DNA of 33,325 nucleotides from Pseudomonadota bacterium (lineage in GTDB: Bacteria; Pseudomonadota; Gammaproteobacteria; Burkholderiales; Thiobacillaceae): NCBI GenBank assembly GCA_030653935.1, contig JAURYL010000052.1, forward strand, positions 1 to 33,325. Reading direction: 5' to 3'. Positions 3,866 to 30,038 of this stretch are shown piece after piece; the stretch's first letter is position 1, and every line of letters starts with the position of its first letter. The notes beneath the pieces were generated by a model. That model searched no databases. It saw nothing but the letters and a program-made list of their open reading frames with translations, and was not told the origin of the DNA. The translations under genes and the position numbers were made by a program.

Positions 3866-4062
3866 AAAGGTTTTTTCGCGTTAGCGGGTGACGCGGGCCG
3901 GCAAGGTTCCCCCCTTTTGCAAAGGGGGGTTAGGGGGGATTTGCGGACGCCTGAACTGGCACCACCCTTGGAGAAATCCCCCTCATTCCCCCTTTGAGAA
4001 AGGGGGAGGCCGCCTTCCCATCGGTTATGCGCGATCACCCGCTAACGAGAAAAGAACCTTTT
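3866..4062. repeat. Nested inverted-repeat element downstream of ksgA
   Basis: The outer arms (3866-3895 and 4030-4062) share a perfect 13-bp core, CGTTAGCGGGTGA at 3879-3891 and its complement at 4035-4047, with similar AAAGGTT...TTTTC flanks. Inside is a second, imperfect inverted pair of C-rich and G-rich tracts (3908-3942 and 3974-4007; AAATCCCCCT type). The whole forms a long stem with a nested stem. No open frame of interest lies inside. It could be a decayed miniature element that took up a second repeat. Confidence 0.65.
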
Positions 4063-4067
4063 AAAAC

Positions 4068-4090
4068 AGCCGGCTGGAAGCCGGTGCTAC
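4068..4090. repeat. Half copy of GTAGC-CCGGCTTCCAGCCGGC repeat
   Basis: This is the complement of GTAGCACCGGCTTCCAGCCG, one arm of the hairpin found complete at 19716-19796. On the minus strand its leading GTAGC supplies the TAG stop codon of ksgA (4087-4089), so the repeat has become the end of the gene. Confidence 0.65.
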
Positions 4091-5852: not shown

Positions 5853-5984
5853 GGCGGGCGATGGTAACTCGCGCCCGCCGGCTGCGTTCGCCGCCAACAT
5901 TGGCGACCTGCAATAAATATGAACGACCTGCGAGAATGCGCCCACGATGAAGACAGATCGCACCTTTTTGCTCAGGCATTCATG

Positions 5985-6222
5985 AACCTATATTCCTCAG
6001 TTGACAGCTCCTTGGCCCTCGTGAGGCCGCAGGAATGCTGGCGTTTGCGCCTCCGATGGCGCGCACCAATCGGGTGGCGCCGCTACGCGCCCGATTGCAC
6101 GGTTTTCGGGCCGTCTGGCTGCGTTGCTCCTCCTTGCGGGCCCCGGCCCGCAGCGTCGTCGCGCCTTGCCAGCCGGCCCGAAAACCGCACACTCGGGCGC
6201 GTTCAACTGAGGAATATAGGTT
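5985..6222. mobile_element. Miniature inverted-repeat element, CCTA...TAGG family (copy 1)
   Basis: Perfect 20-bp inverted ends (5985-6004 and 6203-6222) contain CCTA-TATTCC-TCAGTTGA. If the element proper is CCTA...TAGG (5987-6220, 234 bp), its flanks are ATGAA and TTGAA, a possible decayed 5-bp duplication. Inside, 6088-6111 pairs with 6176-6199 at 21 of 24 positions, around a GCGGGCC-GGCCCGC hairpin (6137-6152). A 31-base tract (6081-6111) is identical to 18391-18421 in copy 2. There is no transposase, so it would need one in trans. The right end carries GAGGA, which serves as ribosome-binding site for the next gene. Confidence 0.7.
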
Positions 6223-7009
6223 GAACAGACCACACCCCGCCTTGTTCATCGGCCACGGCAACCCGATGAACACGCTGGAAGACAACGTCAACAGCCGCGC
6301 CTGGCGCGACTGGGGCAAGCGCTTGCCGCGCCCGCGCGCGATTCTGGTCATTTCCGCGCACTGGGAGACTGAGGGCATCGCCGTGACCGCCATGCCCTGC
6401 CCGAGAACCATTCACGACTTCGCGGGGTTTCCGAAGCGGCTGGCGGAGTTCAGCTACCCGGCGCCGGGCGACCCCGACCTGGCGCGGCGGATCGCGCAAT
6501 TGCTGGCGCCGGAGCCGGTGACGCTGGACATGGAATGGGGGCTCGACCACGGCGCCTGGTCGCTGCTCGCGCATCTCTACCCCAACGCCGGCGTCCCGGT
6601 GGTACAGCTCAGTCTCGACCGCCACCGTGACGCCGCCGCGCATTTCGCGCTGGCACAACGCCTGCGCCCCCTGCGCGACGAGGGCGTGTTGATCCTCGGC
6701 AGCGGCAATATCGTGCACAACCTGCGACGCATCGACTGGCATCGCCACGAGGGCGGTTTCAGCTGGGCGGAACGCTTCAACCGCCGTGTGCACCGACTGC
6801 TGCTGGAACAGGATCACGCAGGCCTGTGTCGTCTCGATGAGGAAGACACCCGGCTGTCCGTCCCGACGCCGGAACACTATCTGCCATTGCTCTATATCTC
6901 GGCGGTGCGGGATGCCGGCGAATATCTGACCCCGCTCAACGACCACATCGAATATGGCGCCATCGGCATGCTCTCCGCCTGGGTCGGCCACATGAAACCG
7001 GCGCCGTGA
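6221..7009 (+). CDS. DODA-type extradiol aromatic ring-opening dioxygenase (YgiD-like)
   Basis: Member of the LigB/DODA family, close in style to 4,5-DOPA dioxygenase YgiD. The family cleaves catechol-type rings with a divalent metal; the physiological substrate here is unknown. The length of 262 residues matches. Conserved His-containing stretches are FIGHGNPM (9-16), ISAHWET, WGLDHGAWSLL, GNIVHNLR and DHIEYGAIGML. TTG at 6221 is chosen as start because the conserved GHGNPM begins ten codons later and GAGGA (6209-6213) is 7 bases upstream; the next ATG (6266) would remove that motif. The frame continues open upstream through the repeat element, but that part has no family similarity. The stop overlaps the next start (GTGA). 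Confidence 0.88.
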   Translation: MNRPHPALFIGHGNPMNTLEDNVNSRAWRDWGKRLPRPRAILVISAHWETEGIAVTAMPCPRTIHDFAGFPKRLAEFSYPAPGDPDLARRIAQLLAPEPVTLDMEWGLDHGAWSLLAHLYPNAGVPVVQLSLDRHRDAAAHFALAQRLRPLRDEGVLILGSGNIVHNLRRIDWHRHEGGFSWAERFNRRVHRLLLEQDHAGLCRLDEEDTRLSVPTPEHYLPLLYISAVRDAGEYLTPLNDHIEYGAIGMLSAWVGHMKPAP

Positions 7010-18291: not shown

Positions 18292-18448
18292 TTAATCCTA
18301 GAAATCTCAGTTGACCGCTCCTCAACCCCTGAGAACCCGCTGGTTCTCCGCGTTCAGCGCCTTCGATGGCGTTCACCCTCTGGGTGCGACCGCTACGCGC
18401 CCGATTGCACGGTTTTCGGGCGCGCTCAACTGAGGTTTCTAGGTTAAT
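18292..18448. mobile_element. Miniature inverted-repeat element, CCTA...TAGG family (copy 2), with 5-bp TTAAT flanks
   Basis: Inverted ends of 18 bp (18297-18314 and 18426-18443) are CCTA-GAAATC-TCAGTTGA and, on the other side, the complement of CCTA-GAAACC-TCAGTTGA (one mismatch). The element proper is 147 bp. Direct repeats TTAAT lie immediately outside both ends (18292-18296 and 18444-18448), as expected for a 5-bp target duplication. Inside are a 7-bp hairpin GAGAACC-CGCT-GGTTCTC (18331-18348) and a 31-base tract (18391-18421) identical to copy 1 at 6081-6111. It interrupts the 3' end of the hypothetical reading frame at 18444-18673. Confidence 0.75.
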
Positions 18449-19715: not shown

Positions 19716-19796
19716 GTAGCGCCGGCTTCCAGCCGGCTTCTTTAAAAACGGCCAGCTGCTTTTACCGCAAAGAAGCCGGCTGGAAGCCGGCACTAC
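19716..19796. repeat. Palindromic repeat, GTAGC-CCGGCTTCCAGCCGGC family
   Basis: Arms of 28 bases at 19716-19743 and 19769-19796 are complementary at 27 of 28 positions with a 25-base loop. A solo arm of the same family ends ksgA at 4068-4090. The surrounding gap (19620-19918) holds no gene; a C-rich/G-rich fragment with CCCTCTTTATAAAGGGGGG near 19861-19880 resembles the inner repeat at 3908-4007. Confidence 0.85.
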
Positions 19797-22603: not shown

Positions 22604-22750
22604 GGTGACCTCCTGATAAACCTAAATCCGGCAGTTGAAACCGTAGAAGCGTAGGTTGGGCAAAGCGCAGCGTGCCCAACAACCCGTCGCCATGTTGGGC
22701 ACGCTGCGCTTTGCCCAACCTACGTCTACTGCTCATGGTGACCCCCTGAT
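22596..22750. repeat. Palindromic repeat within a 22-bp direct duplication at the ctaA-ctaB junction
   Basis: A perfect 32-bp hairpin (22650-22681 and 22693-22724, ends CGTAGGTTGGGCAAAGCGCA) is bracketed by 22-bp direct repeats CTGCTCATGGTGACC-Y-CCTGAT at 22596-22617 and 22729-22750 (21 of 22 identical). The left copy carries the ctaB ribosome-binding site and start; the right copy carries the ctaA stop. Confidence 0.85.
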
Positions 22751-25244: not shown

Positions 25245-25319
25245 CGTAGGTTGGGCAAAGCGCAGCGTGCCCAACAACCCGTCGCAATGTTGGGCACGCT
25301 GCGCTTTGCCCAACCTACG
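25245..25319. repeat. Palindromic repeat, GTAGGTTGGGCAAAGCGCAG family (second copy)
   Basis: Perfect 32-bp arms at 25245-25276 and 25288-25319 with an 11-base loop. They are identical in both arms to the copy at 22650-22724; the loops differ by one base. It lies between the convergent DUF2909 and ctaE genes and may act as a transcription barrier. Confidence 0.9.
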
Positions 25320-25340
25320 TTTTCGTTCCAGCGTGTTCGG

Positions 25341-29687: not shown

Positions 29688-30038
29688 AACCCCTTCTCCA
29701 TAGGGCACGGCCATAACCAAGTAATTTACTCGGAATTGACCATGCACTGCTGAAGGTAGTCAGGTAACGGCCAAAAGCAAGCAATCAGTTCAGATAAGTC
29801 ACTGATCTTTATAAGAGATTATTCGGACCTTCTGGTATGAAACGCGCGGCGGGCAACGACGCCCGCTCAGAGGTCGTGAATTAATTGAACCCGGTGGAAA
29901 AACCCACCGTCATTCCCGCGCAGGCGGGAATCCAGTTCGTATATCTGGTTGATTCTCAAGGCAGTCAGCCCACGAACTGGATTCCCGCCTGCGCGGGAAT
30001 GACGTTCATGATGGGTGTCGGCATTTATTCACAGCCTC
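29688..30038. other. Intergenic region between hoxY and ctaC
   Basis: No gene is seen. It should hold the hoxFUY terminator and the ctaC promoter. A GCGGGC-AACGAC-GCCCGC hairpin (29849-29866) lacks a T tract, so it is a poor terminator candidate. TATAAA on the minus strand (29813-29808) could be a -10 box, but no good -35 is at the right distance. The rest is the palindromic repeat at 29908-30004. Confidence 0.5.
29908..30004. repeat. Palindromic repeat, GTCATTCCCGCG family (copy 2)
   Basis: Perfect 33-bp arms at 29908-29940 and 29972-30004 with a 31-base loop; ends CGTCATTCCCGCGCAGGC. It is the same family as 198-266 but fully matched, so it is probably younger. It lies where hoxH would be expected after hoxY. 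Confidence 0.95.

Follow-up and report, generated by a model that had tools for sequence, protein, structure and literature searches.

The insertion sequences (IS) nearest to the repeats described here are those of the IS1380 family, which includes ISEcp1 and whose transposases belong to PF13701. The family duplicates 4-5 bp of target DNA, and the end of ISEcp1 reads CCTAGATTCTACGT. Among miniature elements, the Correia elements (CREE or NEMIS) of Neisseria duplicate the dinucleotide TA. The RNA of these MITEs is processed, with RNase III cleaving at the terminal inverted repeats (TIRs), according to the review PMC10969869. TIMEs are non-autonomous elements derived from Tn3 and thought to be mobilised by the related full transposon; as described in PMC4133298, they are 262 bp long with 38-bp ends and usually occur in single copy, and so differ from the family considered here. 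MITEPye1 of Paracoccus yeei resembles it in combining IS-matched ends with a predicted RNA stem-loop, but is linked to the IS1182 family, has 1-3 copies per chromosome and was described in one species (PMC11578231). No description of an IS1380-linked MITE of the present kind was found in the open-access papers searched, including PMC9012009, PMC10813416, PMC4133298, PMC11578231 and PMC10969869.

The repeats lie in a stretch of 33,325 nucleotides from a Thiobacillaceae bacterium (contig JAURYL010000052.1), hereafter the window. They are like IS1380-family elements in having ends that begin CC and in the 5-bp duplications of the nearest relatives found; they differ in lacking a transposase gene and in carrying a hairpin that has no counterpart near the IS ends. 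From Correia elements they are set apart by a 5-bp duplication, by different ends and by a strand signal that resides in an internal hairpin instead of the TIRs. We read both copies in the window as members of a multi-copy MITE family probably moved in trans by a PF13701 transposase of the IS1380 family, and on sequence comparison would give this reading a probability of about 0.87. The initial annotation had proposed a two-member, non-autonomous element of a kind that it could not name. Its non-autonomous character is strongly supported, and the kind is an already known one, a MITE linked to IS1380-family elements, here equipped with a hairpin that seems to be selected as a single strand.

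The limits originally given for the two copies, 5987-6220 and 18297-18443, proved accurate. Copy 1 is full length (234 bp) and lies on the minus strand, its A-end at 6220 and its B-end at 5987. The terminal inverted repeats (B-end, 5987-6004, plus strand; A-end, 6203-6220, minus strand) read CCTATATTCCTCAGTTGA at both sides, as annotated, with TATTCC as the six variable bases (N6) of each. A large internal hairpin at 6085-6202 (minus strand; arms 6085-6119 and 6168-6202, 89% complementary) adjoins the A-end repeat, while a B-side palindrome of the form CACC-N5-GGTG at 6064-6076 occupies the place of an IS palindrome found at or near the transposase start. The flanks are ATGAA (5982-5986) and TTGAA (6221-6225), which we judge from empty sites to be a target duplication with one substitution: G022 and G006 align on both sides of the insertion and have one ATGAA each. 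The paired 5-mers consequently do not predate the element, a point that the initial annotation had wished to see checked, and its mention of repeated flanks for copy 2 alone was incomplete. G017 was not counted as an empty site because its upstream sequence differs, though a gene start with ATGAA is present there. The ATGAA of the empty sites appears to be where the downstream gene begins. Copy 1 sits at that start, the relatives reading ATGAA and the window TTGAA after the element (6221-6225), and a 324-aa frame (6035-7009) crosses the MITE into the downstream gene.

Copy 2 (147 bp, minus strand) has ends that differ slightly from one another, a B-end repeat at 18297-18314 (plus strand, N6 = GAAATC) and an A-end repeat at 18426-18443 (minus strand, N6 = GAAACC), which agree with the annotated CCTAGAAATC and CCTAGAAACC plus TCAGTTGA. 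The TTAAT reported on both sides is likewise present (18292-18296 and 18444-18448), and the B-side palindrome reads CACCC-TCT-GGGTG (18374-18386). The identical core said to be common to both copies is there, as part of a 65-nt repeat with 85% overall identity. The length gap had been attributed to 91 extra bases in copy 1; the best reading is that copy 2 has lost 87 bp. Compared with L019 of the same genome, copy 2 matches at 144 of its 147 bases once 87 bp between two TCGGGC repeats are removed, and the junction, at 18416-18421, retains the TCGGGC common to both edges of the loss. One hairpin arm and the tip are missing as a result. Copy 2 would thus be an internal-deletion derivative of a longer MITE that later lost 87 bp through deletion between short direct repeats. 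At the copy 2 site in relatives, the upstream side aligns and the downstream side does not.

No Rfam model matched the window at its gathering score. The window holds other palindromic repeats. Two of 76 nt (CGTAGGTTGGGCAAAGCGC...), at 22650-22725 and 25245-25320, are 99% identical, lie some 2.6 kb apart and have perfect arms of 32 nt each. A perfect inverted repeat of 33 nt (CGTCATTCCCGCGCAGGCGGGAATCCAG...) with a 31-nt spacer occupies 29908-30004, with a related arm (90%) at 239-267, and repeated palindromic arms around GCCGGCTTCCAGCCGGC, three of them listed, occur at 4059-4090 and 19716-19796.

The family proves to be much larger than a pair. Within the window TCAGTTGA occurs five times against an expected 0.42, a count that none of 100 shuffles reached. 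In the genome from which the window comes, 15 exact CCTA-N6-TCAGTTGA ends were found (8 forward, 7 reverse), against none for the reversed pattern used as a control, so that the search for further copies that had been suggested did yield them. The pattern is present in 22 of 61 genomes, this one included; since the reversed control matches six of the 61, lone end matches in other genomes may be due to chance. With copy 1 and its flanks as query, 22 of the 23 genomes of the genus gave a match, many of them on the element alone. The 15 ends at home and the matches elsewhere point to a large family in place of the supposed pair, one carried by many Beta- and Gammaproteobacteria. Paired ends with matching or near-matching flanks were seen in Nitrosomonas, Rhodoferax, Sulfuricella, Azonexus, Oxalobacteraceae, Thiotrichaceae, Thiodiazotropha, Chromatiales and Arenicellales, nearly all of these named records being metagenome-assembled; copies in Opitutae metagenome-assembled genomes (L100, L147) may be binning errors. 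Two plasmid records, from Polaromonas (72% identity) and Caballeronia (68%), cover all 234 positions. A phage search gave no match to the element, and the viral loci bearing the end pattern (80 of 91 examined) contained no miniature pairs and looked like chance. Among 36 copies no preferred orientation relative to neighbouring genes was seen (13 versus 23, with crude ORF calls).

Two sets of paired ends were assembled, a first of 79 pairs, including a few doubtful ones such as overlapping pairs in L183, and a second of 60 loci from the genus of the window. Lengths run from 85 to 395 bp within a search range of 80-420 bp, most often 234-238 bp; the commonest length, 234 bp, accounts for 14/79 pairs of the first set and 37/60 of the second. 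Exact 5-bp duplications flank 48 of the 78 first-set pairs with both flanks (shuffled mean 4.5, maximum 14) and 29 of the 60 in the second, rates that somewhat overstate the true frequency, since the selection of pairs in both sets took flank match into account: pairs with at least two end mismatches were admitted to the first only if flanks matched at 3/5 positions or more (or a flank was cut off), and in the second the flank match was part of the score by which each pair was picked. The remaining 30/78 and 31/60 have no exact duplication. All 77 exact duplications read NTNAN, with T at position 2 and A at position 4, a rule unaffected by this manner of choosing pairs. The elements are therefore short, devoid of a transposase gene, bounded by terminal inverted repeats and target-site duplications and dispersed in many copies, and their ends match those of autonomous elements (L114 and L333), all of which characterise a MITE.

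These autonomous elements, IS1380-family IS of about 1.63-1.70 kb, are the likely mobilisers of the MITE, to judge by their ends. They were encountered solely by searching with transposases. The end pattern itself recovered only miniature copies, with no convincing pair 0.7-4.5 kb apart among the matches listed (114 stretches of contigs), and none in the viral loci (80 of 91 examined); relaxed criteria added a few weak pairs, for instance a 4153-bp one in L132 whose ends have five mismatches and which GTTAT flanks on either side. Most PF13701 transposases of the order have other ends, and those with CTAG or TTAA flanks were set aside because their ends differ. An early lead, L039, in which an IS1380 C-terminus is followed by a MITE-like end, is a putative partner. 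A more distant, multi-copy IS1380 element of 1529 bp (L290, genome G184) does have a somewhat similar end, with NTNAN duplications in all five copies read, and the G184 genome gave 39 first-look candidates for PF13701. Its transposase finds matches in 31 of 369 genomes of the class, and it was these that led to the IS described next.

Ends of the right kind belong to IS of 1703 bp in L333 and L334, in which one end agrees with the right end of copy 2 at 17/18 positions and the other at 15/18; the former, CCTAGAAACCGCAGTTGA, is one base off that of copy 2. The flanks of L333 (TTAAA and ATGAT) do not match. Exact duplications do surround related IS: ATGAT in L335 (1687 bp), TTAAA in L368 and TTTAA in the more distant L331, while L332 (1685 bp) has TTCAA and TTGAA. 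In L332, at 1098-2860, a partner-type IS is nested in a would-be 78-bp element with 18/18 matching ends (CCCGCTTTTCTCACAGCA) and CTAG flanks. For copy 1 the counterpart is Candidatus Accumulibacter L114, whose end CCTATTTTCCTCAGTTGA agrees at 17/18 positions (one base off) and coincides at 18/18 with one of the two ends of a 234-bp pair from G011, a genome of the genus. The start of a transposase follows this end (41-46% identity over 140-147 aa, E values 3e-28 and 4e-30), after which the contig stops. The partner transposases match the PF13701 (DDE) profile with 58.8 and 68.6 bits (cut-off 34.7); their best NCBIfam model is the IS1380 equivalog, whose cut-off of 180 bits they do not reach (123.6 and 128.2 bits). 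The window's own genome gave no match to the partner transposase, and within the taxonomic family partial matches were confined to 4 of 117 genomes (G005, G002 and G022 of the genus, and G124).

IS and MITE occur side by side on the Polaromonas plasmid. The IS (CP087967.1) is 1630 bp long, has an annotated transposase and is flanked by TTAAA on both sides; its transposase-side end reads CCTATTTTCGGCAGTTAG and its opposite end CCTAGAAACGGCAGTTAG. A 234-bp MITE 357 bp away ends in CCTAGAAACGGCAGTTGA and CCTAGAAACAGCAGTTGA, with flanks, TTCAT and TTAAT, that do not match exactly. The inner variant GGCAGTT is common to one end of this MITE and to the adjoining IS, while the other MITE end reads CAGCAGTT. 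We would accordingly picture an IS1380-family transposase acting on an 18-bp inverted repeat, as a rule CCTA-N4-CC-TCAGTTGA, with insertion into NTNAN sites and a 5-bp duplication of the target. The duplications are seen directly; that the transposase recognises the MITE we infer from the shared ends.

The initial annotation had observed that the N6 arms of the two copies changed together, and this extends to the family. N6 is identical at both ends in 38 of 79 pairs (8.4 in shuffles, maximum 16), and in the 39-copy alignment A1, whose make-up is given below, all six N6 pairs are Watson-Crick in 27 copies, with a mean of 5.64 against 4.34 after shuffling (maximum 4.85). Copies with imperfect N6, which had been named as a point against the covariation, do exist (12/39) but are a minority. 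Common descent of both arms and recognition by one transposase suffice to explain the matching: the N6 types would be end variants of the IS lineage, and the arms of a MITE would agree because both go back to a single founder and are acted on by the same transposase. Arm-to-arm copying perhaps helps.

That copying by itself, as gene conversion between the ends, keeps the arms matched is possible, though on balance doubtful. A tree of 99 copies from both sets yields 58 double changes affecting both arms of the ends, compared with 33 single transitions and 22 other departures, as copying would predict, albeit with a tree built from the same alignment, and N6 is mostly symmetric in the MITEs and asymmetric in one IS. 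Selection by the transposase for equal ends would, however, leave the same pattern, and mixed copies exist, for example L053 with GAAAGC and GATTCC.

Another explanation raised by the initial annotation, that the N6 arms covary because the two ends must pair as a terminal stem, cruciform or RNA, is unlikely. It would account for the 27 of 39 copies with six of six pairs and for a helix 1 that is 97.9% paired, but not for the Polaromonas IS, a full element with exact TTAAA duplications in which N6 is TTTTCG at one end and GAAACG at the other. Its TTTT is one base off the TATT of copy 1, so that the T-rich type and the GAAA type of copy 2 can occupy opposite ends of one IS. The 12 imperfect copies also speak against required pairing. 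Moreover, on the tree, single-step changes in the ends of the element lead to G-T and A-C about equally (18 versus 15, p = 0.73), which implies that selection does not see single-strand pairing of the ends; such pairing as there is would not be single-strand-selected. Hairpin-dependent ends are hence not supported as the reason for the covariation. Least probable by far is a REP- or Correia-like repeat without a transposon parent, kept for regulation (REP elements and attC sites were weighed by eye), which would likewise be short, palindromic and many-copied but is at odds with the exact 5-bp NTNAN duplications, the empty sites and the IS that carry the same kind of ends.

To return to the MITE as a probable dependant of IS1380-family elements, its parts, starting at the A-end, are a terminal repeat, a hairpin (about 118 bp), a short AGCG junction, a CACC-N-GGTG palindrome, a leader and the B-end repeat. 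The palindrome is also present in all five IS tested (four full, one partial; L331 left out), at a distance of 78-88 bp from the end on the transposase side. Its ATG is annotated as the start codon in the Polaromonas IS (locus position 1441) and seems to be one in the Accumulibacter IS, while in L332, L333 and L335 the palindrome lies some codons inside the transposase frame. Strictly defined, it occurs in 22/39 and 32/60 MITEs of the two sets (shuffled means 0.12 and 0.39), mostly at position 78, and is absent from 17/39 and 28/60. Beyond the ends and palindrome, the B-half has weak similarity to the IS, favouring the transposase side (z up to 6.9 in one pair, otherwise below 4). The B-half would in this way resemble the transposase-proximal end of an IS, down to a palindrome that in the IS coincides with the start codon of the transposase or lies close to it. 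The A-half is another matter. None of the five IS sequences contains the motif of the hairpin tip, and the best inverted arms up to 200 bp inward from either end of the four full IS have scores of 6-8, where the MITE reaches 23. The hairpin of about 118 bp thus seems to belong to the MITE alone, and appears to be under selection for pairing on one strand.

The latter was assessed on A1, for which 57 copies of 224-300 bp were reduced to 51 by removing near-duplicates and 39 then picked by hand. Those left out, because their length was odd, their interior unlike the rest or their sequence similar to other copies, were L026, L038, L058, L059, L118, L123:4256, L135, L138:1294, L151, L153:5572, L154 and L168, the interiors of L026, L135 and L154 not being shared with other copies. 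L028:1742, L078, L101 and L103 were reoriented by eye against the call of the script, and two junction pairs were excluded from the pair count. In A1, 94.7% of cells pair, compared with 72.5% after shuffling and at most 42.3% in slid controls, and 37 of 52 pairs have changed on both sides, counts that lean toward structure because the structure was predicted on A1 and on that strand. The A-to-B strand folds the more stably in 38 of the 39 copies. The contiguous helix of 26 pairs contains 134 G-T against 10 A-C appositions, besides 81 other mismatches, and 81 against 10 without two wobble-rich columns, the copies being related to one another. By lineage, the excess resides mostly in Gammaproteobacteria (32 versus 3) and a Comamonadaceae-type group (27 versus 2), the four A1 copies of the window's genus giving 1 versus 1.

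The second set came entirely from that genus; every copy in it was kept, orientation was automatic, and the copies were aligned onto the columns of A1. Its helix has 150 G-T versus 22 A-C (77 versus 22 without the wobble-rich columns), and its ends 9 versus 8. The 12 copies omitted from A1 have a weaker signal, 18 G-T and 10 A-C in the helix, and 2 and 5 at the ends. On the tree of 99 copies, single-step changes in the helix are 87 G-T versus 23 A-C (p = 6e-10), and in the next helix 42 versus 10. These figures suggest that the internal hairpin is selected as RNA or as single-stranded DNA. Of the RNA-level role once proposed for the whole element, what stands concerns the internal hairpin only, where G-T exceeds A-C on one strand, and single-stranded DNA would be indistinguishable. 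At the hairpin tip (A1 columns 70-133), two similar direct stretches, AAGG..G..RACG, are by eye conserved while the stem varies; they are possibly a protein site.

A wider interpretation, which we put at somewhat short of an even chance, is that the copies form a single ancient non-autonomous lineage and not a series of fresh IS deletions. This lineage would have gained a hairpin module that was conserved across Beta- and Gammaproteobacteria and acts as RNA or single-stranded DNA read from A-end to B-end, opposite to the transposase gene. The module might aid persistence, for example by controlling the partner transposase or host transcripts.

An abundant repeat family of many environmental proteobacteria can now be named and tied to a transposase. 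Within this one mobile element, double-strand and single-strand selection are separable, the ends being without strand preference and the hairpin having one. If this is confirmed, MITE hairpins of this type would count as functional parts maintained by selection, and as more than by-products of deletion.
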